A model generated the notes under the pieces. That model saw only the letters and a list, made by a program, of their open reading frames with translations, made no database searches and was not told the DNA's origin. A program made the translations under genes and the position numbers. A stretch of 26,112 bases of DNA from positions 1 through 26,112 of IMG/VR virus record IMGVR_UViG_3300042453_002532; one strand, written 5' to 3'. The DNA is from a virus. Positions within the stretch are counted from its first letter, which is position 1, and each line of letters starts with the position of its first letter. This document shows, piece by piece, positions 472 through 24,748 of the stretch.

Positions 472-1396
472 AATACGGTTATACGGTGCGCTTGCCAAGT
501 TTGTTGGTACTCGTGTCTTGTATGCTGATGTAAGCAGCGCTGCTGACGCAGTGCGTTTTTTAGTTGCTAATTTTGCAGGTATTGAGCAGCACATGAGCGA
601 CAGCTACTATAAAGTTGCTGTCGGCACGTACACCCTGGCCGAGGACGATCTTCACGCACCAGTAGGCAGCCAAGACATCCAAATCGTTCCAGTCATAGGT
701 GGCGCTGGCGCGGTAGGACGCATCATCCTCGGTGTTGTTCTTATCGGTCTTTCGTTTATTCCAGGTATCGGTGCCCTTGTAGCTCCTGTGCTCTTCGGCT
801 TAGGCGCGAGTCTGATACTGGGCGGGGTTTCGCAACTGCTCACGCCGGTCCCGGTACTACCTAAAGGGCAAGACAGACAGGACGATCCACAAAAAAGTTA
901 TAGTTTTTCGGGTGTTCAGCAAACATCACGTCAAGGCATTCCTGTTCCCATTGTGTACGGGAAGCGTCTAACAGGAAGCGTAGTCATTTCTGCTGGTGTA
1001 AGCACCGACGTACCAGCCGGAGATTACGCGGCCTCATACACATACCCTGGACACATCGACACGTCTACACGCTTTAAGTATTTGGTTTATTATGACTGGG
1101 ATACTTGTCTATTCGGCCCTAATGGCGTTATAGAAAACGGTAATGCTATCGACGGCGCCAACGGCTGGCTTGTCGATGGGCGGGTTTTACTTAGACCTAT
1201 ATCCAATGCGCAAGCAGTCGTCGTCTGGGCTACTGGAAACATGACATCAATATACGCTCCTAGCACGGTTGTTGCTATTGATACGCTTTATTCAGTAGGT
1301 GTTATAGTTTCCAACACTGTAACGCGCAGAGCCTCCGCTTGCGGAGATAGTTATTGGATACGCTCAGAGTTAACCAACACGTTTGTGGCACCATGA
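461..1396 (+). CDS. Tail assembly protein gpI-like with extra C-terminal region
   Basis: 311 aa. Residues 1-80 look like the ubiquitin-like N-terminus of lambda gpI ([13 protein letters not shown], ending in a QIVPVIGG segment). Residues 84-127 are a long Gly-rich hydrophobic stretch, and residues 160-182 ([20 protein letters not shown]) match the usual end of gpI proteins. In lambda, gpI is needed for tail-tip assembly and may not remain in the virion. Lambda gpI is about 223 aa; here about 125 further residues (roughly 185-311), rich in Tyr, Trp and Val, follow the normal end, and I do not recognise them. The ATG at 461 overlaps the upstream stop by 11 bp and the TGA overlaps the next ATG (ATGA, 1393-1396), so translation is probably coupled. 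No Shine-Dalgarno site is visible. The position between gpK-like and gpJ-like genes supports the assignment. Confidence 0.8.
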
Positions 1397-4074
1397 CTAG
1401 CGACCGTAACTCGATTATCGGTGCTGGCGGAGGCGGATGTTTCACGCCTGACACGCTGGTGCGTACAGCTAACGGTGATGTAAGCATTGCGACTATAAAA
1501 GCTGGAGACACAGTTATCGCGTTTGATGATACGGGAGCGCTGCATGAAGCCTCCGTATTGGCCGTACACGTACACGAAGATAACGAGGTATTTAGATACA
1601 ACTTATGGGGTTCCCGCTATATCGACGCTACGCCAAACCATTGGGTACTTAACCAGTTCAACACGTTTGTAGAGATAAGCACACTGAGTTTAGACGACTG
1701 TTTCGTAGACGTAAATAACCACCTGCGCCCGTACAAAGGGTGCGCAAAACTACCTAACACAGCTGTATACAATCTTACAGTAGATAAGTATCACACATTT
1801 ATAGCTAACGGCATCCGCGTTCACAACGCGGGTTTAGGCGCGGACACCATCGCCGGATCTGGAGGCGGTGGCGGGAAAGGACGGGGCGGCGGCGGAACCC
1901 GCGTGCCGGTAACAGCCCCAGATAGTCTTAACTCCGTACAGTACGCGCATGTCCTTGACCTAATCTCTGAGGGCGAAATAGAAGGTCTAGTCGATGGCCT
2001 AAAATCTGTATACATAAATAATACGCCGCTACAAAATAACGACAACAGCTACAACTTTGAGGACGTAGAACTATTTACGCAGACTGGTACTCAAGACCAA
2101 GGTTGGGTGCCGTTGGGTTCGGGTGGTGTTGAAAACGAGGTAAACGTAGGTGTTACGGTACGTCAAGCCATACCTATTACCCGTTCTATTACAAACTCGG
2201 AGGTAGACGCAGTACGAGTAAAGATTGCAATCCCTGCGCTGCAATCCATCGACAACACCAACGGTGATACCTACGGTACATCCGTAACGCTGCGCATATC
2301 CGTACAGTACAGCGGCACTGGGTTCGTCGATGCAGTCGTCGATACTATATCTGGCAGAACTTCCGATAGATACGACAAACAGTATGTCGTAGCCCTGAAC
2401 AGTAGGACGCCAGGGGTGGTTGTTGATGTGCGTGTAACTAGAGTTACTGCAGATAGCGGGAGTCAGCTGCTCAGCAACGAGTTCGCCTGGACTAGCTACA
2501 CGGAGATAACATACATTCGTCTTGCATACCCAAACAGCGCCCTTATAGGTCTACGAGTAAACGCACAACAGTTCAATTCCGTACCACAGCGCAGTTACCT
2601 GATTAAAGGTATAAAAGTTCAAATACCTTCTGGGGTCACAGTAGACTCCACCACGGGACGGATTATCTACCCAACAAACTTCGTCTGGAACGGCACATTT
2701 AGCTCTGCCGTTTGGACCTCCTGCCCTTCCTGGATTTTGTGGGACTTGCTTACCGATAGCCGTTACGGATTCGGTGATCACATCGCACCAGGGCAACTCG
2801 ATAAGTGGGCATTTTTTGCCGCATCAAAGTACGCTAACGAGCTTGTAGCCGATGGCTTCGGAGGACAAGAAGCCCGCTTCTCGTGCAACGCGGTTATCCA
2901 AACATCAGACGACGCATACAAGCTCATCAATGATTTACTTTCTGTCATGCGGTGTCAGGGTTTCTGGGCGTCTGGTGCGTTAACTATCGCACAGGACAGA
3001 CCCGCAGACCCGGTATATCTATTCAGCCCAGCCAACGTGTCTAAGGAAGGCTTCAGCTATAGCGGATCAAGCCTAAAGGCACGGCCGAACGTGGCTGTTA
3101 TTAGCTACTTCGACAACGATCTACGCGATATCGGGTATGAGGCAGTTGAGGATATTGCATCCGTAGATAAGTATGGTGTGGTTAGAGCTGATATTACAGC
3201 TTTTGCTTGTACCAGTAGAGGTCAGGCGAATCGAATAGGTAGATGGCTGCTCTACACGGAACAGAACGAAACAGAAGTTGTATCGTTTAAGTGTGGTGTT
3301 GAAGCGGGTTATCAGGTGCGTCCTGGGCAACTCGTTCGCATCGCCGATCCGCTGCGCATGGGTTCGCGCAGAGCAGGGAGAATTGCATCCGCCACTACTT
3401 CGCAAGTAACTGTAGACAACGCTGCTGAAACAGATTTATCAGGTAGCCTAATTCAAGCTGTACTTCACGTTATTCTGCCTACAGGCGTAGTAGAGTCCCG
3501 TGGCATAAGCAGCATTGCAGGCGGTGTAATTTATGTAAGCACGCCGTTCAGCGTAGCCCCTAATGTAAATTCTGTATGGATTATTGAAAATCCAACTGTG
3601 GCGCCCTCCACATGGCGTGTAGTCAGTGTTAAGGAGGAAGATGCTACAACTTATGTTGTATCGGCTCTAGCATATTCTGCAGCTAAATATGGATACGTCG
3701 AGGCAGGCGAAAAACTAGCCCCACGCAGTCTGACAAACCTCAATCCACTGCCGCCAGCTCCCACTGACGTACGCGGCATCGAAGCCGACGTTGACATAAA
3801 TGGCGTAATCGTAAAAAAGGTTGTATTTACCTGGGTGCCTCCCCAAGGTATAGCTCAATTCCGCGTGCGCTATCGCTACGAATCCGACAACTTTACAACG
3901 CTAGTAGTCCAGGGCACAACCTTTGAAATTGTGGGTGCATTAGCTGGTACTTACTACATACAGGTAAACGGCATCACCGCTAGCGGAGAAGTCACCTTGG
4001 CTAGCTTGGGGCAATATCAGGTAGGCCCATACGTTGACACAGACTACTGGGCTAGCGACTACACGGCTAGTTAA
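1393..4074 (+). CDS. Tail tip / host-specificity protein gpJ-like with embedded Hint domain
   Basis: 893 aa from the ATG at 1393, chosen because it makes a 4-bp ATGA overlap with gpI; a TTG at 1354 is the alternative. Residues 16-145 are a Hint (intein-like) domain inserted between two glycine-rich stretches. From about residue 170 the protein aligns by eye with lambda gpJ: DLISEGEIEGLVDGLKSVYI, ITRSIT, ASSYTEI-type and WD.LTDSRYGFG blocks, the DGFGGQEARFSCNA block, and CTSRGQANRIGRWL. A fibronectin-III-like segment (about 775-865) precedes the end. gpJ forms the tail tip and contacts the receptor; without the Hint domain this copy is about 760 aa against 1132 in lambda. The far C-terminal receptor-binding part is missing or unlinked. 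The stop is TAAGCTGCG, a context shared with two later genes. Codon use is more AT-rich than in the right-hand modules. Confidence 0.9.
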   Translation: MTSDRNSIIGAGGGGCFTPDTLVRTANGDVSIATIKAGDTVIAFDDTGALHEASVLAVHVHEDNEVFRYNLWGSRYIDATPNHWVLNQFNTFVEISTLSLDDCFVDVNNHLRPYKGCAKLPNTAVYNLTVDKYHTFIANGIRVHNAGLGADTIAGSGGGGGKGRGGGGTRVPVTAPDSLNSVQYAHVLDLISEGEIEGLVDGLKSVYINNTPLQNNDNSYNFEDVELFTQTGTQDQGWVPLGSGGVENEVNVGVTVRQAIPITRSITNSEVDAVRVKIAIPALQSIDNTNGDTYGTSVTLRISVQYSGTGFVDAVVDTISGRTSDRYDKQYVVALNSRTPGVVVDVRVTRVTADSGSQLLSNEFAWTSYTEITYIRLAYPNSALIGLRVNAQQFNSVPQRSYLIKGIKVQIPSGVTVDSTTGRIIYPTNFVWNGTFSSAVWTSCPSWILWDLLTDSRYGFGDHIAPGQLDKWAFFAASKYANELVADGFGGQEARFSCNAVIQTSDDAYKLINDLLSVMRCQGFWASGALTIAQDRPADPVYLFSPANVSKEGFSYSGSSLKARPNVAVISYFDNDLRDIGYEAVEDIASVDKYGVVRADITAFACTSRGQANRIGRWLLYTEQNETEVVSFKCGVEAGYQVRPGQLVRIADPLRMGSRRAGRIASATTSQVTVDNAAETDLSGSLIQAVLHVILPTGVVESRGISSIAGGVIYVSTPFSVAPNVNSVWIIENPTVAPSTWRVVSVKEEDATTYVVSALAYSAAKYGYVEAGEKLAPRSLTNLNPLPPAPTDVRGIEADVDINGVIVKKVVFTWVPPQGIAQFRVRYRYESDNFTTLVVQGTTFEIVGALAGTYYIQVNGITASGEVTLASLGQYQVGPYVDTDYWASDYTAS
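1438..1827 (+). other. Hint / bacterial intein-like (BIL type A-like) domain inside gpJ
   Basis: Residues Cys16 to Asn145 of the gpJ-like protein. Block A is CFTPDTLVRTANGDV, with Cys as residue 1. Block B is ATPNHWVL with the T-x-x-H signature (Thr80, His83). The C-terminal blocks are YHTFIANG and RVHN, ending His144-Asn145. There is no homing-endonuclease insert (about 130 aa in total). The residue after Asn is Ala, not Cys, Ser or Thr, so canonical intein splicing lacks its +1 nucleophile; type A BIL domains share this trait and are known to cleave and sometimes splice. The glycine-rich flanks (GAGGGG before, AGLGAD then GSGGGGGKG after) are flexible linkers where cleavage would be tolerated. 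Domain identity is clear from the motifs; its activity is inferred. Confidence 0.88.
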
Positions 4075-8475: not shown

Positions 8476-9016
8476 CCTGCCCGAGTGGTATCTGAGAGAC
8501 GGCATGAAGCAGCTGCTCTAATGTTCCATCGTTCACAATATAACGCGCAAAATGGGGCCAATCATCTAGGCTTCCCTCCGAGGCGTGCGTGTGCGTATTA
8601 ACCATTCCTTTACGAGTAATCTTCCACATCTCACCCCCTAAGCTGCGGATCAGCTCTGCTTCGTTTTCAAACCTTACATCGTCCACAACAACGTACTCGT
8701 GCCGCTTAATACGCGCTTGCCACACACGCAGCCACACATCAGGCGCAACGCAAGTTCTTCCCCACTCCGTACCCAAGGTCTGCAGCAGGTGACGCGTACT
8801 CACCCCTAAGTCGGTGAGCACAATCTCCTTATCGACGTAAAGCCGCTGCGCAGCCTGTTCCGGCGTATAACCGATGCCTACAAGCAACGGAAACACCATT
8901 TCCTTCAATGGTTCTGCGAAGGGCACCCGCACAAACACGCTGCTCTCCAGCGCATGACTAACCGCCGTCTTACCGCTACGAGGCGCAGGAGAATAAAGTC
9001 CAATAAGCTTAGTCAT
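8453..9016 (-). CDS. Deoxynucleoside monophosphate kinase (T4 gp1-like)
   Basis: 187 aa. Near the N-terminus is a P-loop variant, YSPAPRSGKTAVS (Gly15-Lys16-Thr17), followed by a helix and PFAEPLKEM, the layout of phage dNMP kinases of the T4 gp1 / adenylate-kinase-like group. VVVDDVRFENEAELIRSLGG is typical of the Walker B side and the lid region of this family. The enzyme phosphorylates dNMPs to dNDPs, turning degraded host DNA into precursors for phage DNA synthesis. It starts in an ATGA overlap with the upstream sigma-factor stop (9013-9016), so the two are co-translated. Length is close to other short phage members of the family (T4 gp1 is longer). Confidence 0.82.
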   Translation of the reverse strand: MTKLIGLYSPAPRSGKTAVSHALESSVFVRVPFAEPLKEMVFPLLVGIGYTPEQAAQRLYVDKEIVLTDLGVSTRHLLQTLGTEWGRTCVAPDVWLRVWQARIKRHEYVVVDDVRFENEAELIRSLGGEMWKITRKGMVNTHTHASEGSLDDWPHFARYIVNDGTLEQLLHAVSQIPLGQDGADPPG

Positions 9017-9894
9017 ACAAGCCTCACTGATTTCAAGCGCAGACGCATTTTAAGGTGTGCAGCCTCGATGCGCTGCCTAATGCGTTCTCTTGAAACATTG
9101 TCCTCAGCTGCGATGCTAGACAGTGACATCGGTTCGCCGCCATTAAGCCCGTATCTGCGCTGGATCGTAAGCAGTTCGCCTTCAGTTAGGCAGGCGAGGG
9201 CGATCTGGAACATCGCCTGTTTTTCATCCTTCTCCATGCAGTCCTTCTGCCTATCCAGCGAGTCGGTGTCTGGGATAAGCTCCAGGATTGGGCTGCCCGT
9301 CTCACTTACCAAGGCATCGAGGCTGCGATGCCAGGCGTTCCGGGCTAGCAGCGTCTGCATGTGCGCAACCTCAACATCTGCCTCTGCCGCCATCTGCGCA
9401 ACAGACGGCATCTTGCCGTGCTCCTGCAGATGCGCCTTCTGAAACCGCACCACCTTATACACCTTGTCGAGTCCGTGCTGCGGCACACGGATAAGCCGCT
9501 CCTTAGCGTCAATGCCCCGCGTAATTGCCTGCCTCACCCACCAATAAGCGTAAGTGGAGAACTTATAACCCTTACTGCTGTCGAATAGTTCGACTGCGCG
9601 TGTAAGTCCGAATGCACCTTCCTGTACTAAGTCCATAAGTTCCATGCCGCTACCATTCAGACGCCGCGTGTACTGCTTAGCAACACTGACAACCAACCTA
9701 AGATTGCAGTTAATCAGCTTACGCTTAGCGCGTTCAGCCACCTTAAGTGTGCGCTTCTCTTGGGCGCTAAGTTCCTGCTTATCGGCTAGGGCAGTGCCGC
9801 ACTCGATTTGACGCGCTAGTTGAATCTCTTGTTCCGCGGTGAGCAGCGGATACCTAGCGATTTCGTTTAAGTAATCCTTAACAGAGTCGGTCAT
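9013..9894 (-). CDS. Group 2-like sigma-70 factor of cyanobacterial type
   Basis: 293 aa. Region 1.2 begins at residue 3 (DSVKDYLNEIARYPLLTAEQ), close to cyanobacterial SigB/C/D-type factors. Region 2 covers 58-128: NLRLVVSVAKQY, MELMDLVQEGAFGL and GYKFSTYAYWWVRQAITR, the core-binding and -10-recognition segments. Region 3 follows (RLIRVPQH at 134-140), and region 4 has the helix-turn-helix SLSSIAAEDNVSRERIRQRI at 258-277. All four regions are intact and the non-conserved region is absent, as in group 2 sigmas. It would bind host core RNA polymerase and direct it to phage promoters. The start has the context AAGCTTATGAC. Its stop overlaps the dNMP kinase start. Known myoviral cyanophages use a shorter gp55-like sigma, so this host-like version is notable. 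Confidence 0.93.
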   Translation of the reverse strand: MTDSVKDYLNEIARYPLLTAEQEIQLARQIECGTALADKQELSAQEKRTLKVAERAKRKLINCNLRLVVSVAKQYTRRLNGSGMELMDLVQEGAFGLTRAVELFDSSKGYKFSTYAYWWVRQAITRGIDAKERLIRVPQHGLDKVYKVVRFQKAHLQEHGKMPSVAQMAAEADVEVAHMQTLLARNAWHRSLDALVSETGSPILELIPDTDSLDRQKDCMEKDEKQAMFQIALACLTEGELLTIQRRYGLNGGEPMSLSSIAAEDNVSRERIRQRIEAAHLKMRLRLKSVRLV

Positions 9895-9948: not shown

Positions 9949-10167
9949 TTACTCTTGGCCTGGTTCAAGCAGCTTTACAGTTCGTCGCCTTCCAGCCTTT
10001 TCGATCCACCGGAAAGCATCGCTGGGTAGGAGCAGCTCAGGCGCCTGGAGCGTGTACCAGCGGTGCTCACACGCTTGGCAATGCCTCCTTCTAACGATCT
10101 GATCACCATCGGCATAAGCCGTCATGACAACGCTATTGCGCTGGCACGCACATCCTGGGCATCGCAT
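9949..10167 (-). CDS. Zinc-ribbon protein like the NrdR N-terminal domain
   Basis: 72 aa from the ATG at 10167 (context GCGCTTATGCG). The protein opens MRCPGC (Cys3, Cys6) and continues VRRRHCQACEHRW (Cys30, Cys33), a four-Cys zinc ribbon with the RRR-x-C-x-x-C-x-x-RW spacing of NrdR, the repressor of ribonucleotide reductase genes. NrdR also has an ATP-cone of about 100 aa; here only about 35 residues follow, so the nucleotide-sensing part is absent. A DNA-binding or transcription role is likely from the fold. It is followed by a 54-bp gap and then the sigma gene. Ogr/Delta-type zinc activators are an alternative family. Confidence 0.72.
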   Translation of the reverse strand: MRCPGCACQRNSVVMTAYADGDQIVRRRHCQACEHRWYTLQAPELLLPSDAFRWIEKAGRRRTVKLLEPGQE

Positions 10168-10172
10168 AAGCG

Positions 10173-10502
10173 CTAAATTACCGTCTTAGTGTTGAATTGG
10201 GGGTCTGATTCGTCCAGACCATGGGCCAGCGGGTCGAACGAGCCTTCGACATTAGCATCCCCAACAGGCGCTGGAACGTCCCCCTTCCTCTTAGCGTCCA
10301 TGTCCGCCAAGCTGCTAAGCCATGAGTCCAGCGATTCGCGCATAGGCAGCCCTTTTGCGATGCTTAGGAAGCGGCGCAACTCTTTCACGTCGCGCACGAA
10401 CACCGAAGTGCCGCTGGAGTAGGCGATAAAGTAGCGCCCATTGTAATCGCGCCCAGTCTCGATAGACTGGTGCAAACTCAGGCGTAAGGTGTCGCGCTTC
10501 AT
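10173..10502 (-). CDS. Hypothetical protein (109 aa)
   Basis: 109 aa from the ATG at 10502, chosen because it makes an ATGA overlap with the upstream membrane-protein gene; the frame is open further upstream but overlaps that gene. The N-terminal 55 residues look like a beta-rich fold (RLSLHQSIETGRDYNGRYFI, then YSSGTSVFVRDVKELRRFL), followed by a helix and a polar, acidic C-terminus. No named family recognised. It ends 5 bp before the zinc-ribbon gene. Last member of the mini-gene array in transcription order. Confidence 0.65.
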   Translation of the reverse strand: MKRDTLRLSLHQSIETGRDYNGRYFIAYSSGTSVFVRDVKELRRFLSIAKGLPMRESLDSWLSSLADMDAKRKGDVPAPVGDANVEGSFDPLAHGLDESDPQFNTKTVI

Positions 10503-10639
10503 AGGCGTGGCGTACGGTTTGTGGGTGTAGCTAGCCTCAGCAGCAAGGGCAGCAGGCGCACAAAGGCCGCTTTGATGCACAGCTCAACCGCTGCGCCGAG
10601 GGCGAGCAGCAGGGCGAGGGCAAGCAGGGTGTTAAGCAT
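10499..10639 (-). CDS. Small hydrophobic membrane protein (46 aa)
   Basis: 46 aa from the ATG at 10639. Residues 2-18 (LNTLLALALLLALGAAV) and 24-37 (AAFVRLLPLLLRL) are hydrophobic, separated by a short segment with Glu19, and a polar C-terminus ends NRTPRL; one or two membrane helices are likely. Both ends are fixed by overlaps: its ATG overlaps the preceding gene's stop by 8 bp (ATGCTTAA) and its TGA overlaps the next ATG (ATGA). These junctions are the main reason to accept such a short ORF. Function unknown. Confidence 0.65.
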   Translation of the reverse strand: MLNTLLALALLLALGAAVELCIKAAFVRLLPLLLRLATPTNRTPRL

Positions 10640-10916
10640 CGGCACCCTCCACCTCAGGCACCGGCTCGATGGCAGGGCGGCCCCAGCGGGCAAGGACGGC
10701 GCGGGCGTAGTCCTTGTCGGTGCTGAAAGGGTCTTCAAACACAGCAACGGCCAAGGCCATTAGCTCCTCATCCGTCGGCCCCTGCGGCTCGGGCTGGGCA
10801 AGCAAGGCGCGGGCGTTGTTCCGCCAAGCATCCCAATCCACTCGTTGGCCATCTTCATATTGATCCAGTTTTTGAAGGATCTCAGAGCACAGGGCTTTGT
10901 AATCGGGGTCAGGCAT
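10632..10916 (-). CDS. Mini-gene array protein with TDEEL ... ARAVLARWGRP motif
   Basis: 94 aa. It starts MPDPDYKALCSEILQKLD, has ALLAQPEPQGPTDEELMALA in the middle and ends with RAVLARWGRPAIEPVPE. I recall this modular pattern, a short helix pair around PEPQGPTDEEL and a C-terminal RAxLARWGRP, as widespread in cyanophage hypothetical proteins. A longer relative with two copies lies at 11098-11625. A good ribosome-binding site (AAGGAG, 6-7 bp spacing) precedes the ATG, within the end of the upstream gene, which overlaps by 8 bp (ATGCCTGA). Role unknown. Confidence 0.75.
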   Translation of the reverse strand: MPDPDYKALCSEILQKLDQYEDGQRVDWDAWRNNARALLAQPEPQGPTDEELMALAVAVFEDPFSTDKDYARAVLARWGRPAIEPVPEVEGADA

Positions 10917-11085
10917 CTAAGTCTCCTTCACTTGTGGGGGCAGTGCTCCAAATTGTGTGAAGCTCATCGCATCGACGTTTCAGCATGTCCGTTTGCAGCC
11001 AATAATCGAGGGGTGACGCAAAAGTCTCAACATTGATCTCTCGGATGATGATTGTTTTCTCTTGCTTAGCTGGGTAGAGAGCCAT
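10909..11085 (-). CDS. Hypothetical protein of the mini-gene array (58 aa)
   Basis: ATG at 11085 to TGA at 10909, 58 aa. The sequence reads MALYPAKQEKTIIIREINVE, then a helix with TFASPLDYWLQTDMLKRRCD, and ends PTSEGDLDA. I do not recognise the family. The 8-bp overlap with the next gene (ATGCCTGA) and 12-bp gap from the previous stop fit the array. Its C-terminal PTSEG is also the near-C-terminus of the unrelated protein at 12404-12619, because both genes share 15 bp of DNA that carries the next gene's ribosome-binding site. Confidence 0.65.
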   Translation of the reverse strand: MALYPAKQEKTIIIREINVETFASPLDYWLQTDMLKRRCDELHTIWSTAPTSEGDLDA

Positions 11086-11097
11086 TAGTATGCTTAT

Positions 11098-11625
11098 TTA
11101 GGATTGTTCATTATCCATCGGCGCCACCGGCTTGATTGCGGGGCGGCCATAGCGGGCTAAAGCGGCGCGGACAAAGCTGAGAATCTCGCCGGGCTCAGAG
11201 GTAATCCTTCCACCATCAACGGTGTATGAGTCGGGTTCAGGAAGATTACTGGCACGACTAAGCAATTCAAGCAATTCCTCATCCGTCGACCCCTGCGGCT
11301 CTCTTCCGTGCGGGCCGCGGCCCCAGCGGGCTAAAGCGGCGCGGATCGTCTCGCTGAACTCGTCTGACTTGAAACAACGTCGCCACCCATGCACTTCTGG
11401 GTCCATTTCCTCTAAGGGGACTTCCGCAGCAGCGTCTGCCCATTCTTCTATCTCTTGATCCGTTGGTTCCTCATCCATCGGCCCCTGCGGCTCGGGCTGG
11501 GCTAGCAGGGCGGCGCGGGCGCGGGCCATAACAATCCGCAGGTGGCCGGGGTAACGCACTTCGGGATGTCGGTTTTCATCCAGTCCTTGCAGTAGCTCAG
11601 CGCACAGCGCACGGAAGTCAGTCAT
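11098..11625 (-). CDS. Array protein with two TDEEL/RAALARWG modules
   Basis: 175 aa from the ATG at 11625 (8-bp ATGACTGA overlap with the upstream stop); the frame stays open upstream inside the neighbour. The protein begins MTDFRALCAELLQGLDENRH like the 10632-10916 product, has ALLAQPEPQGPMDEEPT near residue 45, a first TIRAALARWGRGPHG, then EPQGSTDEELLELLSRA and a second VRAALARYGRPAIKPV. It is thus a tandem duplication or fusion of the short family unit. GGAG lies 8 bp before the start. Function unknown; the family seems to be a mobile small-protein module in cyanophages (recollection, not a search). Confidence 0.72.
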   Translation of the reverse strand: MTDFRALCAELLQGLDENRHPEVRYPGHLRIVMARARAALLAQPEPQGPMDEEPTDQEIEEWADAAAEVPLEEMDPEVHGWRRCFKSDEFSETIRAALARWGRGPHGREPQGSTDEELLELLSRASNLPEPDSYTVDGGRITSEPGEILSFVRAALARYGRPAIKPVAPMDNEQS

Positions 11626-11935
11626 TAGTTTGCTCCGATTTGTAGGGTCCAGTGAGTTGGCCGTGTTCGTCAGTAAAGCCAGCTTCAAAAAGAAACTGCC
11701 TGGCAGCGTCCTTGTCGCCAGCTAAGGCTCGCTCCATCAGTGTTGGAGCGGTAAGCTCAGCGGCCATGTCTTCCAAGGTTGAGCACCGAACACCTACAAG
11801 GGTGGTATCATCGCTGTAGCTCTCCCAAGCGTTAGCCAAAAGAATAAGCACATTAGCGATGCCATGGCGCATGTTCTGGCCGTATTCAAACTCTTCAATC
11901 AAACGCTGGGCGCGTTGAGTTAGGTGGTCAGTCAT
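11618..11935 (-). CDS. Helical hypothetical protein of the mini-gene array (105 aa)
   Basis: 105 aa from the ATG at 11935, set by the 8-bp ATGACTGA overlap with the upstream stop. Sequence: MTDHLTQRAQRLIEEFEYGQ, then HGIANVLILLANAWESY, a middle segment with STLEDMAAELTAP, and an end GFTDEHGQLTGPYKSEQTND. Predicted mostly helical and soluble. I recognise no family. It follows the array plan at both ends (8-bp overlaps), with no clear Shine-Dalgarno site, so it may rely on coupled re-initiation. Confidence 0.65.
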   Translation of the reverse strand: MTDHLTQRAQRLIEEFEYGQNMRHGIANVLILLANAWESYSDDTTLVGVRCSTLEDMAAELTAPTLMERALAGDKDAARQFLFEAGFTDEHGQLTGPYKSEQTND

Positions 11936-12179
11936 TTTGAGCGGCAGCAAATAAGTTGGTTGCGATTTCATTGCGACGCTTCTGCGTTTGACAGACAAGC
12001 TCGATGTAAGCATTTATGGCGGAAGCAGCGAGGAGTCGGTCTTGCATGCCAAAGCAGTAATCCTTTCGTGTGTACCTGAGCGCGTGCTCCAAGTCACGCA
12101 GTCGGCTACCAGGAATGGGCCATACCGTTCCATCAAAGTGAACAAACGGACTGCCTTCATGGATGGTGAAATCAGCCAT
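11928..12179 (-). CDS. Hypothetical protein of the mini-gene array (83 aa)
   Basis: 83 aa from the ATG at 12179 (8-bp ATGGCTGA overlap with the upstream stop; GAGGG lies nearby). It starts with a small beta-like part MADFTIHEGSPFVHFDGTVW followed by helices (RLRDLEHALRYTRKDYCFG and LAASAINAYIELVCQTQKRR). No known family. The frame extends upstream on the same strand but there it runs through the coding part of the neighbour, so the overlap start is preferred. Confidence 0.65.
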   Translation of the reverse strand: MADFTIHEGSPFVHFDGTVWPIPGSRLRDLEHALRYTRKDYCFGMQDRLLAASAINAYIELVCQTQKRRNEIATNLFAAAQND

Positions 12180-12411
12180 TGCACTTACCCTCCAGCTCGG
12201 CGGCGATGGCGAGAAGCTGATCGCGCACTTTGCAACGATTGCGAATGGCGGCAAGTGAAAAGGATCCTTTGTCGATGTCACTAGGCTCCGGCACCACCTG
12301 ATTGGCAGCAGCTCGCAGGGCGGCGGCTGCAATCTCATCGGCAGGCGCAGGGCAAATTTCGCGCACGGCATCCAGAATCGCCTGAGCGGCGGGGGAGAGA
12401 GGCTCAGCCAT
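12172..12411 (-). CDS. Array protein, LSPAAQAI ... LLAIAAELEG family, copy 1
   Basis: 79 aa from the ATG at 12411. It begins MAEPLSPAAQAILDAVREIC, has AALRAAANQVVPE in the middle and ends QLLAIAAELEGKCNG. A paralogue with the same three blocks lies at 12612-12818. I recall this three-block family from Synechococcus phages and some cyanobacteria, unnamed. GAAGGA precedes the start within the shared 15-bp boundary sequence. Both junctions are 8-bp ATGGCTGA overlaps. Role unknown; the even spacing of Ala and Leu suggests a small helical domain. Confidence 0.72.
   Translation of the reverse strand: MAEPLSPAAQAILDAVREICPAPADEIAAAALRAAANQVVPEPSDIDKGSFSLAAIRNRCKVRDQLLAIAAELEGKCNG
12187..12213. repeat. 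27-bp direct repeat, copy 1 (copy 2 at 12624-12650)
   Basis: Bases 12187-12213 and 12624-12650 are identical and encode the IAAELEG end of the two paralogous array genes. In both places the repeat is followed on the coding strand by a few bases and then the ATGGCTGA junction, so the homology reaches the boundary with the next gene. Confidence 0.85.
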
Positions 12412-12619
12412 CAAAGTTTCCTTCACTTGTGGGTTGGTGCTTCTTGGCGTGCTGCTTGCAATAAAGACCGTCAGGGCCATGGCCACGTTTGCGGCAGCAT
12501 TGGTGAGGAATCCAGGTGCCTGGCGCAGAAGGCCAGACTTCTTCAATGCAGCGGGTCGGGTCTTCTGCTTGCCCTTGAGGGCAGCCACCCCAGACCCCGT
12601 ACCGGCGTTGGTCAGCCAT
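12404..12619 (-). CDS. Small zinc-binding-type protein (HQCCRKRGHGPDGLYCKQHA)
   Basis: 71 aa from the ATG at 12619. Conserved-looking Cys/His positions are Cys13, Cys24, Cys41, Cys42, His47, Cys54 and His57, in the pattern GGCPQG, DPTRCIEEVW, HQCCRKRGHGPDGLYCKQHA. Proteins with DPxRC and GHGPxGLFCKQHAK are frequent in cyanophages as I remember them, always hypothetical. A structural zinc site and a DNA- or RNA-binding role are plausible but not shown. The start is set by the 8-bp ATGGCTGA overlap and has GGAGG upstream. Its last residues, PTSEGNFDG, come from the shared boundary DNA. Confidence 0.75.
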   Translation of the reverse strand: MADQRRYGVWGGCPQGQAEDPTRCIEEVWPSAPGTWIPHQCCRKRGHGPDGLYCKQHAKKHQPTSEGNFDG

Positions 12620-12818
12620 TGCCACCCTCCAGCTCGGCGGCGATGGCGAGGAGGCAAAGGCGTATTGAGTGCCTGGCAAAGCCCGCATGTGTTTCCGGCA
12701 CCACCTGATCCGCAGCAGCGCGGAGGGCGGCGGAAAGGTCGTACTCGTATGGGCAGTCCTCCGGAGTGTTGTAAGCGGCATTCCATACAGCCTGCGCTTG
12801 TGGCGACAGTTCAGTCAT
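12612..12818 (-). CDS. Array protein, LSPQAQAV ... LLAIAAELEG family, copy 2
   Basis: 68 aa from the ATG at 12818 (ATGA overlap with the upstream stop). Blocks MTELSPQAQAVWNAA, SAALRAAADQVVPET and LLAIAAELEGGNG align with the 12172-12411 product. The middle between blocks has diverged, while 27 bp at the 3' end (12624-12650) are identical to 12187-12213 of the paralogue. Function unknown. The pattern of identical ends and divergent middles suggests recombination or recent partial duplication rather than simple drift. Confidence 0.72.
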   Translation of the reverse strand: MTELSPQAQAVWNAAYNTPEDCPYEYDLSAALRAAADQVVPETHAGFARHSIRLCLLAIAAELEGGNG

Positions 12819-12844
12819 TCAGGTAGCGCCTCCAGTGCGCGGCG
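12813..12844. repeat. 32-bp direct repeat, copy 1 (copy 2 at 13187-13218)
   Basis: Bases 12813-12844 and 13187-13218 match in 31 of 32 positions (T versus A at 12824/13198). Each copy spans the end of one array gene (RRALEALPE), a GGAGG ribosome-binding site, the ATGA stop/start overlap and the first codon or two of the next gene. The genes on either side do not otherwise resemble each other. Confidence 0.88.
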
Positions 12845-13192
12845 GATCGTGTTGTAAGTGTTTTGTTTGTCGTCGTGATCTGGATTGCCATAGATGTAGG
12901 TATCTAAGGCGGCATAAGCCTGCTCCTTCAAGCTCGGCGGCTTGGGGCGGCGAATCATATGGAGATCTATTGCAACATGCTTGCCGTCGCAAATCAATTC
13001 ACGGGCAAGCACCTCACAGCACGCCTCCAGTTCCTGGTCAGCCCCTGCTTGAAACGCTTGGATCAATAAAACATCAGGATGTTCTTCTTCGTCAAACCAT
13101 TTGTCTTCCCACTTCTTTAGTTGATCAGAAGGTGGAATAGCTGGGTGTGGATCAATGACAAACAACTTGTCACCGTTGATTTGTTTAGTCAT
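12815..13192 (-). CDS. Hypothetical protein of the mini-gene array (125 aa)
   Basis: 125 aa from the ATG at 13192 (ATGA overlap). Sequence begins MTKQINGDKLFVIDPHPAIP and continues with an acidic helix (LKKWEDKWFDEEEHPDVLL), a helix with AGADQELEACCEVLARELI, and ends TIRRALEALPE. The C-terminal RRALEALPE recurs in the next upstream gene, and the DNA there is a near-identical 32-bp repeat. No named family. A ribosome-binding site (GGAGG) sits inside the repeated boundary. Confidence 0.68.
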   Translation of the reverse strand: MTKQINGDKLFVIDPHPAIPPSDQLKKWEDKWFDEEEHPDVLLIQAFQAGADQELEACCEVLARELICDGKHVAIDLHMIRRPKPPSLKEQAYAALDTYIYGNPDHDDKQNTYNTIRRALEALPE

Positions 13193-13455
13193 TCAGGAAG
13201 CGCCTCCAGTGCGCGGCGCTCCCATGCCCAGGCCACAGCCTGCTTAGCGATGTGCTGGTCCGACTCGGCCAGCGTGGCCTCGCCGCCCATGCTCGACCAC
13301 TCCTCAACCAAGCCACTCGGCAGCTCAGGAGTTGGCTGGTTGAGCACATGCTCAACCCACGCGACGTGGGTCATGACTGCGTGCGGTCCAGGCGGCAGAC
13401 CATAGGACTCCTGCCACCACTTGCGGAAGGCTTGTTCAACTGCAATGCGATCCAT
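13189..13455 (-). CDS. Hypothetical protein of the mini-gene array (88 aa)
   Basis: 88 aa from the ATG at 13455, which shares one base with the upstream TGA (TGATG). It starts MDRIAVEQAFRKWWQESYGL, with several Trp and His (VMTHVAWVEHVLNQ), and ends AWERRALEALPE. I recognise no family. The C-terminal segment and its DNA are shared with the 12815-13192 gene although the rest of the two proteins does not align. Confidence 0.66.
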   Translation of the reverse strand: MDRIAVEQAFRKWWQESYGLPPGPHAVMTHVAWVEHVLNQPTPELPSGLVEEWSSMGGEATLAESDQHIAKQAVAWAWERRALEALPE

Positions 13456-13655
13456 CAGCCCAGCTCCTCGCTGTAAAACGCGCTAAGGGGTCCGTAGAAG
13501 TTCTGCAGATCAGGGAAAGCTGCAAACAACGTAAGCCTGTTGGACGGATCTGCAGCCAAGCCTGCGTCAGCAAGCTTGCGCATAAAGTTGCCTCCAAACC
13601 TCTGCGCTGTAAGCAGGGTGTGGATCTGTTGCTCAGCAGTAAGTGGTAATGACAT
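13455..13655 (-). CDS. Hypothetical protein, first gene of the mini-gene array (66 aa)
   Basis: 66 aa from the ATG at 13655 (context GCCTTATGT). Sequence MSLPLTAEQQIHTLLTAQRF, then GGNFMRKLADAGLAADPSNR and a segment FAAFPDLQNFYGPLSAFYSE. It reads as a small, mostly helical soluble protein. No family recognised. It opens the run of overlapping genes and so its upstream region (13656-13706) would carry any array-specific promoter; I see no good -10/-35 pair in those 51 bp. Confidence 0.65.
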   Translation of the reverse strand: MSLPLTAEQQIHTLLTAQRFGGNFMRKLADAGLAADPSNRLTLFAAFPDLQNFYGPLSAFYSEELG

Positions 13656-20044: not shown

Positions 20045-20623
20045 ATGGGACTCCTTTCCAAGACCGCCCAAGCCGCCGTCGCTGGCGGTGGCGCCTACCT
20101 GAACCCCGGCAAGATTGCCGCGGGCTCGGCCGTCCGCTTCTGCCTGCTCAGCGAAGAGCCGCTTGAGTTCTACGAGTGCTGGGGCGAAGGCTCTGACGGC
20201 AAGGCCAAACCCTTCCGCTTCGACTCCGAGCCCAGCCCCGACGACATCGCGCTGGCCATGGGCGACTTCAAGCGCCGCATGAACCGCGAGGGCAACGGCT
20301 TTGAGGCTGTCAAGTTCTGTCTCGCTATCCCCTGCTACAACTTTGAGGCAGCTCAGGTGCAAGTCCTGCAGCTCAGCCAGAAGTCGATCATCCGCGAACT
20401 CGACGCGGTAAGCCAGATGGAGGACTACTCCGACATCCTGGCCATCGACTTCCTGCTCGGCAAGGAAGGCAGCGGCCTGAACACCGAGTACAAGCTCACC
20501 CCGGTCCCCCGCAAGAAGGGTGCCGACAAGGCCATCGCCGAAGCCTGGGAAGAGACCCGCTCCGCCGGCTTCGACCTGAGCAGGCTGCTGGAAGGTGCCG
20601 ACCCCTTCAAGCCCGCCGAATAA
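20045..20623 (+). CDS. Putative phage single-stranded DNA-binding protein
   Basis: 192 aa from the ATG at 20045 (context CTCTTATGG). The middle has aromatic, beta-rich segments (VRFCLLSEEPLEFYECWGEG, KPFRF, NGFEAVKFCLAIPCYNFE) and then SDILAIDFLLGKEGSGLNTE and YKLTPVPRKK. A core followed by x-REG-x-GLNT-x-Y-x-x-TP resembles what I recall of phage ssDNA-binding proteins of the gp32-like kind, and the C-terminus has an acidic helix ending DPFKPAE. The next gene encodes a PD-(D/E)XK exonuclease, and SSB plus exonuclease is a common phage recombination pair. A strong terminator follows at 20714-20746. The stop is TAAGCTGCG. Identity is tentative; a structural comparison would settle it. Confidence 0.5.
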   Translation: MGLLSKTAQAAVAGGGAYLNPGKIAAGSAVRFCLLSEEPLEFYECWGEGSDGKAKPFRFDSEPSPDDIALAMGDFKRRMNREGNGFEAVKFCLAIPCYNFEAAQVQVLQLSQKSIIRELDAVSQMEDYSDILAIDFLLGKEGSGLNTEYKLTPVPRKKGADKAIAEAWEETRSAGFDLSRLLEGADPFKPAE

Positions 20624-20713: not shown

Positions 20714-20746
20714 AGGAGTAAGTGTTGCACCACTTACTCCTTTTTT
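20714..20746 (+). terminator. Intrinsic terminator after the SSB-like gene
   Basis: A perfect 10-bp stem, GGAGTAAGTG (20715-20724) with CACTTACTCC (20731-20740), a 6-base loop TTGCAC and a run of six T (20741-20746). This is a textbook rho-independent terminator for rightward transcription. It separates the SSB-like gene from the exonuclease gene, whose start must lie beyond it. Confidence 0.85.
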
Positions 20747-20781
20747 GTGTAAGCTGTTACAGCTACGTTGCGTTGCTGTCG

Positions 20782-21603
20782 TTGTCCACTCTTGATCCCA
20801 CCGAAGCACTAAGCGGCTTAGCTAAGTGGAAGCTGGAGCGTGACGACGAAAGTGACCCTAATGGGCGTATTTACCGCGATAAGCAGGGTGAAATTTACCA
20901 TAGCGTTACCCGTATTCTTAAGGAGACCAGCAACAGCAAGGCGGCGTTGGAGGCTTGGGCCGCCCGCTTAGGCGAAGAACGCGCCGCCCAGGAGCGCGAC
21001 ACCGCAGCGCAGCGCGGCACGCTCACCCACAACTGCGCCGAGTACCTGCTGCGCACCGCCAAGCGCATGGCCGACGCCACCGCTAAGCGCCGCAACTCCT
21101 GGTACACGAAATCAGACGGCCTCGGCCGCTCCCCCGCCCCACTCACTAAGTGGGCACTTACCCAAGTGCTCCCTAGCGTCCCTAAGGCCGGTCTTAGCGC
21201 TGCCGGCTATCGCCGTGGCTTACTCGGCTGGATAAGCGAAAATGTAACTGCTATCCACGCAATCGAATTTAGCGTGCATCATCCTGCAGGTTTCGCTGGC
21301 ACCTGCGACGGACTAATTGACTACAAAGGTAAGGGGCCTTTCGTCGCCGACTGGAAAACCTCCTTCAACAAACGCTCCGAAGAACTCCTTACCGACTACA
21401 CCGACCAAATCGGCGCCTACAGCCTCGGCCTACGCCACCTCACCGGCATCCAAGCCGTAGGCGGCCTCATCGTCGTAGCACGCCGCGCCGGTAAGCCGGA
21501 TGTGCGCGAACTAAGCGCCCTGGAAGTGCGCGGCGCCGAATGCCGCTACCTAGAGCGCTGCGAAGCCTACTTCGATGCGCTGCATAAGCAGCTAAGCAGC
21601 TGA
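20782..21603 (+). CDS. PD-(D/E)XK exonuclease (RecB/MGME1-like)
   Basis: 273 aa from a TTG at 20782; no ATG exists near the N-terminus, the TTG at 20773 is the alternative, and the TTG at 20722 is unlikely because it lies in the terminator stem. The nuclease core is clear: GTLTH (79-83), IEFSVHHPAGFAGTCDGLID with Asp176, FVADWKTS with Asp190 and Lys192, and DQIGAY (208-213), in the order of RecB-family exonucleases such as MGME1 and Cas4-like enzymes. N-terminal SVTRILKETS also fits. It would resect DNA ends for recombination, replication or host DNA breakdown. It follows the SSB-like gene but is separated by a terminator, so it may have its own promoter. Stop TGA. Confidence 0.85.
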   Translation: MSTLDPTEALSGLAKWKLERDDESDPNGRIYRDKQGEIYHSVTRILKETSNSKAALEAWAARLGEERAAQERDTAAQRGTLTHNCAEYLLRTAKRMADATAKRRNSWYTKSDGLGRSPAPLTKWALTQVLPSVPKAGLSAAGYRRGLLGWISENVTAIHAIEFSVHHPAGFAGTCDGLIDYKGKGPFVADWKTSFNKRSEELLTDYTDQIGAYSLGLRHLTGIQAVGGLIVVARRAGKPDVRELSALEVRGAECRYLERCEAYFDALHKQLSS

Positions 21604-24495: not shown

Positions 24496-24641
24496 ACCGC
24501 AAAATCCTCCTAATCTGCGACGTATTTTGCTTCGTAATCGCAGCTGGAACGATCGCCCTCATCACCTGGGGCATCACCACCTACCCCTCCCCCACCCACA
24601 GCGGCACACAACCCCTAAGCCGCCCCACACCCACGCGCTAA
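24492..24641 (+). CDS. Small single-pass membrane protein (49 aa)
   Basis: GTG at 24492 (GTGA overlap with the upstream TGA) to TAA at 24639-24641, 49 aa. Residues 4-28 (KILLICDVFCFVIAAGTIAL then ITWGI) are a transmembrane helix with a short basic N-terminus, followed by a Pro/Thr-rich tail. Signal-anchor topology is likely. Its stop codon lies inside the first unit of the 15-bp tandem repeat. Role unknown; a membrane-targeted host-takeover protein is one possibility. Confidence 0.58.
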   Translation: MNRKILLICDVFCFVIAAGTIALITWGITTYPSPTHSGTQPLSRPTPTR

Positions 24642-24696
24642 GCCGCTAAGCGCTAAGCCGCTAAGCGCTAAGCCGCTAAGCGCTAAGCCGCTAAGC
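24637..24696. repeat. Four perfect 15-bp tandem repeats (GCTAAGCCGCTAAGC)
   Basis: Units at 24637-24651, 24652-24666, 24667-24681 and 24682-24696 are identical; a degenerate fifth begins GCTACGCCGCC. Each unit contains TAAGC twice. The array starts at the stop codon of the 49-aa membrane protein and lies in a non-coding gap (24642-24748). It could be an iteron-like binding site, a recombination product or slippage of the over-represented word. Confidence 0.9.
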
Positions 24697-24748
24697 GCTA
24701 CGCCGCCCAACTGCCCCTTACCCCTTACCCCTTACCACGCCGCAGCTT

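Follow-up and report, generated by a model that had tools for sequence, protein, structure and literature searches.

A hypervariable island of overlapping mini-genes in an uncultured virus, probably rebuilt by recombination at short coding linkers

The 26,112-base uncultured virus record analysed here (IMG/VR record IMGVR_UViG_3300042453_002532, positions 1 to 26,112; hereafter the window) carries a run of small overlapping genes on the minus strand, from 13655 to 10173. Between two conserved flanking genes, a fixed genome position is occupied by a hypervariable island of overlapping, probably translationally coupled mini-genes. Judging from sequence comparison, this island is very probably reassembled when phages co-infect, through homologous or homeologous recombination at short (~15-40 bp) coding linkers. 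Crossovers there would have two main consequences: i) at boundary linkers, where the C-terminal codons of the upstream gene stand together with the ribosome-binding site (RBS; GGAGG or GAAGGAG) of the next and an overlapping stop/start, whole genes would be exchanged with frame and translation intact; and ii) at internal linkers, since these encode conserved helices, segments would be exchanged in frame, giving new combinations of the variable segments V1 and V2.

Results

The island differs in every close relative

Relatives were retrieved from IMG/VR by searching with the DNA polymerase and the right flanking gene; loci are designated by L numbers. The island lies in the window as follows:

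13455-13655, minus strand: left conserved flank gene, 66 amino acids, begins MSLPLTAEQQIHTLL; the island's upstream edge
10502-13455, minus strand: hypervariable mini-gene island between the flanks, 2.95 kb
10173-10502, minus strand: right conserved flank gene, 109 amino acids, begins MKRDTLRLSLHQS; ends the island in every complete island

Both flanking genes are carried by six IMG/VR relatives (L002, L003, L004, L005, L085 and L088). The left one is conserved in L002, L003, L085 and L088 and lies on 92-95% identical DNA in L004 and L005; the right one is present in 29 IMG/VR loci. Over the flanks compared (at most 1.5 kb per side, and for L088 a left side of just 186 bp), the relatives other than L003 are 93-97% identical to the window on either side of the island, and L003 is 70-72% identical. 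Variation in gene content, which an earlier sequence-only reading of this DNA had suggested looking for at gene boundaries among relatives, was found between these conserved flanks in all seven phages: gene set and island length differ in each, the length being 1.4-2.5 kb in the six relatives against 2.95 kb in the window. In any pair, 0-46% of the shorter island can be aligned (at least 80% identity over at least 100 bp), and the alignable DNA is in large part the flank-adjacent gene of 88 amino acids. One island gene of L003 (10371-11099) contains a long alanine-rich ADAAARA repeat tract.

Could HNH homing endonucleases drive this turnover, cutting near the flanks so that the break is repaired from another phage's island with the linkers as repair homology? 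An HNH_3 gene does lie inside the L005 island, and L095 and L110 have a NUMOD4/HNH gene adjoining the right flank gene; the one in L095 (1872-2533) stands between a truncated duplicate of the flank-gene start and the intact copy, as if it had homed at the island edge. However, no HNH gene was seen in the islands of the window, L002, L003, L004, L085 or L088, and homing alone leaves the in-frame V1/V2 shuffling described below unexplained. We think it rather unlikely that homing is the driving force.

Repeated words lie at gene boundaries and inside genes

The mini-genes of the window's island that the repeats below involve, and their neighbours, are:

12815-13192, minus strand: P-family mini-gene, 125 amino acids, phrog_32006
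12612-12818, minus strand: S-family gene 1, 68 amino acids
12404-12619, minus strand: Cys/His mini-gene, 71 amino acids
12172-12411, minus strand: S-family gene 2, 79 amino acids
11928-12179, minus strand: mini-gene, 83 amino acids, 8-bp overlaps
11618-11935, minus strand: mini-gene, 105 amino acids, 8-bp overlaps
11098-11625, minus strand: R-family gene 1, 175 amino acids, begins MTDFRALCAELL
10909-11085, minus strand: mini-gene, 58 amino acids
10632-10916, minus strand: R-family gene 2, 94 amino acids
10499-10639, minus strand: hydrophobic mini-gene, 46 amino acids, begins MLNTLLALALLLALGAAVELCIK; common to L004 and L087

Seven array junctions have an 8-bp stop/start overlap, mostly ATGNCTGA. 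Over all loci, such overlaps occur at 246 of 938 junctions near array genes, compared with 54 of 1248 elsewhere. Searches of the array proteins against Pfam, PHROGs and PADLOC gave nothing useful beyond phrog_3472 and phrog_32006, neither of which has an assigned function.

The word TCCTTCACTTGTGGG (minus strand CCCACAAGTGAAGGA) stands at both 10924-10938 and 12419-12433. Exactly as the sequence-only reading had claimed, it gives a PTSEG ending to the 58-residue protein (PTSEGDLDA*) and to the Cys/His protein (PTSEGNFDG*) and carries the RBS of the next gene, GAAGGAG at the start of the 94-residue gene. The gene after each copy opens with the same 8-bp stop/start overlap (ATGCCTGA, ATGGCTGA). 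An exact direct match of 15 bp is not significant by itself, with 0.32 expected in the window, and the word alone was therefore rejected as evidence. Its 33-bp context is identical at 29 of 33 positions between 10906-10938 and 12401-12433 (1.6e-5 expected). The two other repeats of the earlier reading, placed at 12813/13187 and 12187/12624, likewise exceed chance: 12809-12844 and 13183-13218 agree at 34 of 36 positions (4e-10 expected), and 12187-12216 and 12624-12653 at 29 of 30 (3e-8 expected). The further claim that homology clusters at the ends and starts of genes holds for the boundary words, which are real, but equally strong repeats lie inside genes: 12287-12326/12694-12733 (36 of 40 identical), 10757-10809/11460-11512 (89% over 53 nt) and 11143-11171/11317-11345 (93% over 29 nt). 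The strong repeats of the array divide about equally between boundary words and internal linkers, so that gene-end homology covers half the picture. The main words are:

10906-10938, minus strand: PTSEG boundary word, copy 1; end of the 58-residue gene, RBS GAAGGAG, start of the 94-residue gene
12401-12433, minus strand: PTSEG boundary word, copy 2; end of the Cys/His gene, start of the 79-residue S gene
12809-12844, minus strand: boundary word, copy 1; RRALEALPE* end, RBS GGAGG and ATGACTGA start
13183-13218, minus strand: the same RRALEALPE*/GGAGG word, copy 2; joins the 88-residue to the 125-residue gene
12187-12216, minus strand: S-family C-linker (LLAIAAELEG) with embedded RBS GGAGGG, copy 1
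12612-12653, minus strand: S-family C-linker with the junction word GAGCTGGAGGGTGGCAATG, copy 2
12287-12326, minus strand: S-family mid-linker (AAALRAAANQVVP) inside the 79-residue gene
12694-12733, minus strand: S-family mid-linker inside the 68-residue gene
10757-10809, minus strand: R-family internal linker (ALLAQPEPQGPTDEEL) inside the 94-residue gene
11460-11512, minus strand: R-family internal linker inside the 175-residue gene

In other phages the same words have different neighbours

The junction word GAGCTGGAGGGTGGCAATG, which encodes LEGGN and simultaneously provides GGAGGG as RBS for the next gene, occurs exactly in 69 IMG/VR stretches, and 55 of its 58 distinct occurrences have the 8-bp overlap at the end of the upstream gene. 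Over all S genes found, the next genes (155 cases) fall into 55 different protein families. The PTSEG word (CACAAGTGAAGGAGAC) is found twice in L114 and, allowing for at most two mismatches, in L043, L096 and L159; the gene that comes after it varies, and in L114 and L096 it supplies a TSEG ending to additional unrelated proteins. The end of the Cys/His gene recurs next to it in L043 and L159. In L159 this gene takes the word in another frame (QVKEADNG), and in L043 it stops before the word, which is there a non-coding leader, indicating that the DNA is conserved rather than the peptide. The search for the same boundary words beside different genes in other phages, which the earlier reading had proposed, was thus positive for both words. 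Shared words found equally inside genes were to count against that reading, and this is partly the case, as linker words also occur within genes.

S and R genes combine recurring segments

S-family genes have the architecture LSPxAQAVLDA-V1-AAALRAAADQVVP-V2-LLAIAAELEGGN. In an AlphaFold2 model of an S protein (mean predicted local distance difference test score 84), three helices approximately coincide with the three linkers and V1 and V2 lie between them; a fold search with this model against the PDB gave no match below E=1. Among 166 S genes there are 88 V1 clusters, 88 V2 clusters and 148 pairings. At least two partners were found for 27 of the 31 multi-member V1 clusters and 23 of the 28 V2 clusters, and six sets contain all four V1/V2 combinations. 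Full shuffling would be expected to give 163 pairings, so some V1-V2 linkage remains (the probability of the same V2 given the same V1 is 0.10, against a base rate of 0.018). Seventy-one gene pairs share one segment and its linker at 95% DNA identity or more (V1 in 37, V2 in 34), and identity in the other segment is close to random among the pairs listed, one of which (L016/L083) is an artefact of parsing. In the 79-residue S gene of the window, V2 and the C-linker are identical in DNA to L078, whose V1 differs. The S mid-linker word is present in at least 120 IMG/VR stretches. R-family genes (FRALCAEL-V1-ALAQPEPQGPTDEEL-V2-ARWGRPAIEPVP) are combinatorial like the S family, and the second segment of the window's 175-residue R gene is joined to other first segments in L006, L009 and L010. 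At L085:2196-2333, L060:858 and L035:3268, S or R genes are truncated and look like failed outcomes of shuffling.

How do the linkers behave in these mosaics? Beside V1, third-position identity of the N-linker is 0.72 in pairs sharing V1, 0.50 in those sharing V2 and 0.46 in those sharing neither, which shows that linkage decays across linkers; linker halves appear to travel with the segment they adjoin. Codon usage alone does not account for the conservation of codon choice in the linkers. As the mid-linker word served to retrieve many of the loci, mid-linker statistics are partly ascertained; third-position identity is 0.66 for mid-linkers in loci fetched otherwise, and 0.58 for C-linkers in loci fetched by the mid-linker only. 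The V segments are conserved at the protein level and are under purifying selection, with ratios of non-synonymous to synonymous polymorphism (pN/pS) of 0.12 for V1 and 0.21 for V2.

The shared words might be nothing but functional constraint, that is, RBS and coupling signals or helices of paralogues with no role in exchange, gene content being changed by illegitimate recombination. This account fits the boundary words, whose GGAGG or GAAGGAG lies at the distance of an RBS and which include the stop/start overlap, and it fits the three predicted helices coded by the linkers. However, it does not explain DNA conservation at the codon level beyond codon usage, the PTSEG word kept out of frame and in non-coding DNA, the near-identical segments that adjoin unrelated partners with the switch located at the linker, or the internal linkers, which have no RBS role. 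We consider it quite improbable.

Array blocks recur in loci with little other homology

Five hundred locus pairs (fragments of 6-22 kb) share a block of 100 bp or more with 90% identity or higher, yet their total homology is below 800 bp. The S family is also found in contigs longer than 100 kb. Bacterial genomes were rejected as a source of the S family: they gave only four matches, all on phage-like contigs within bins of metagenome-assembled genomes (MAGs), one of them labelled Cyanobium. The isolated Synechococcus phages S-CBWM1 (gp55), B23 (gp120) and S-CRM01 (g3) carry the ERLP...HWLP module of the R genes in three gene contexts; comparison of array DNA with isolated phages found no similarity. 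The relatives of the array are Synechococcus-phage-like or uncultured. The Cyanobium MAG contig and the R modules of Synechococcus phages make a cyanobacterial host likely for the window phage.

Since all array sources are metagenome contigs and linkers are repeats, short-read assembly could in principle have fused different phages at the linkers. Yet an ordinary read is longer than a linker (15-40 bp), and 16 of the V1-V2 pairings were seen in two or three contigs each, which makes assembly chimerism unlikely; reading frames and overlaps are also preserved, and the three isolates hold one R module in three contexts. Overall, chimeras are a very improbable source of the mosaics.

Discussion

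By what process is the island rebuilt? We infer homologous recombination from the mosaics, with selection through an action directed at the host. The proposal of the sequence-only reading, that boundary homology would let whole mini-genes be swapped, is supported with one amendment, namely that the unit of exchange often seems to be a gene segment. The likeliest agent would be a phage exonuclease/annealing activity during co-infection, host RecA being the alternative, and selection would keep new combinations since the proteins would act on the host. Two candidate recombination functions lie in the window:

20722-21603, plus strand: phage exonuclease, PDDEXK_1, phrog_298 (found by hmmscan)
20045-20623, plus strand: single-strand DNA-binding protein, weak match to phrog_1607

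RecT was found in 3 of 22 related records and ERF in L112. A PDDEXK search across genomes missed the exonuclease of the window, which hmmscan detects, so negatives from that search tool are weak. Rad52-like phage recombinases recombine short, diverged stretches, and intragenic exchanges of ~100 bp have been reported (PMC3945230, PMC2327257). Such relaxed recombination is plausible machinery here, but it was shown in lambdoid phages, and the window offers an exonuclease and a protein resembling single-strand DNA-binding proteins.

Several points weigh against recombination at linkers. No recognised annealase was found in the window's own record, and the linkers, whose identity between phages averages ~70-90%, are short for RecA. 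Every array sequence comes from a metagenomic contig. Part of the linker conservation may be ordinary constraint, as linkers double as translation signals and protein helices, and the mid-linker figures carry the ascertainment noted above. HNH genes are present in some islands and homing could contribute.

More tentatively, and with considerable doubt, the island might be an evolved system of combinatorial diversification, in which small three-helix scaffolds would receive inter-helix segments from a pool common to the whole community and to different phage types, reassorted at helix-coding linkers to give each phage a fresh set of host-directed proteins.

Recombination at linkers has its closest precedent in lambdoid mosaicism, for which short conserved boundary DNA between exchangeable modules was proposed to serve homologous recombination (Susskind and Botstein 1978; Clark et al. 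2001, as outlined in PMC3029335). The likeness lies in short conserved DNA between swappable modules, and here too one word flanks different modules and module content varies between conserved flanks. Unlike lambdoid boundary sequences, the window words recur many times in one small array, hold an RBS and a stop/start, and also occur inside genes. In T4-type phages, small genes are shuffled at the promoter-terminator elements of promoter early stem-loop (PeSL) cassettes (Arbiol 2010 and Comeau 2014, as summarised in PMC4503421). Small genes shuffled at repeated elements are common to both, whereas the junctions of the window are 8- or 4-bp overlaps. PeSL-type cassettes were rejected, because promoter-like (2, with 1.6 expected) and terminator-like (4, with 3.9 expected) sites in the window are at chance level and absent from most junctions. 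The start-associated sequence (SAS) of Cluster K mycobacteriophages, a 13-bp RBS-bearing word upstream of non-structural genes proposed as a translation signal (PMC3203893), resembles the PTSEG and LEGGN words as a repeated word just before genes of several families. However, the window words differ by inspection from the SAS consensus GGGATAGGAGCCC, and the available sections of PMC3203893 describe neither gene-content exchange nor internal linkers. The 'ORFanage' of cyanophage S-PM2 is a block of unknown genes with poor synteny in metagenomes, whose genes are gained and lost (PMC4503421). It is similar as a variable block, but linker words and segment combinatorics are not part of its description in the portion of that source available. 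What sets the island apart from boundary mosaicism, PeSL and SAS is the density of linkers, the fusion of coding end, RBS and start in one word, and the in-frame intragenic combinatorics. A literature search, whose coverage lacked most subscription journals, found no account of such a linker system.

Words repeated at cassette edges and variable protein segments recall integrons and diversity-generating retroelements, but these have next to no chance of being the explanation, because an integrase was found in only 1 of 22 records (not the window's or a close relative's) and a reverse transcriptase in 0 of 22, records that are perhaps incomplete, and because the words are coding and imperfect and the V segments are discrete recurring variants rather than point-mutated copies of one template.

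Whether phage mosaicism arises by homologous exchange at short boundary sequences or by random joining followed by selection is an old dispute, and the chief objection to the former, as presented in PMC3029335, is that such sequences are seldom found. Here boundary sequences are numerous, stand alongside population-level evidence of exchange and are seemingly active inside genes too. The island is a natural case for measuring breakpoints, linker length and recombinase dependence, and its array is a source of many small phage proteins under selection, with functions unassigned.

Other features of the window

Next to the island lies the gene of a small protein with an NrdR-like zinc ribbon (9949-10167, minus strand). 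The window also encodes a sigma-70 factor with regions 1.2 to 4 (9013-9894, minus strand). The tail-tip J protein (1354-4074, plus strand) contains a HINT/intein-like domain inserted at residues ~29-160 (PT-HINT, E=4e-10), which is flanked by glycine-rich stretches and ends in HNA. The heptamer GCTAAGC is strongly over-represented in the window, with 43 sites where 7 would be expected; at 24635-24709 it makes up a 15-bp tandem repeat, GCGCTAAGCCGCTAA.
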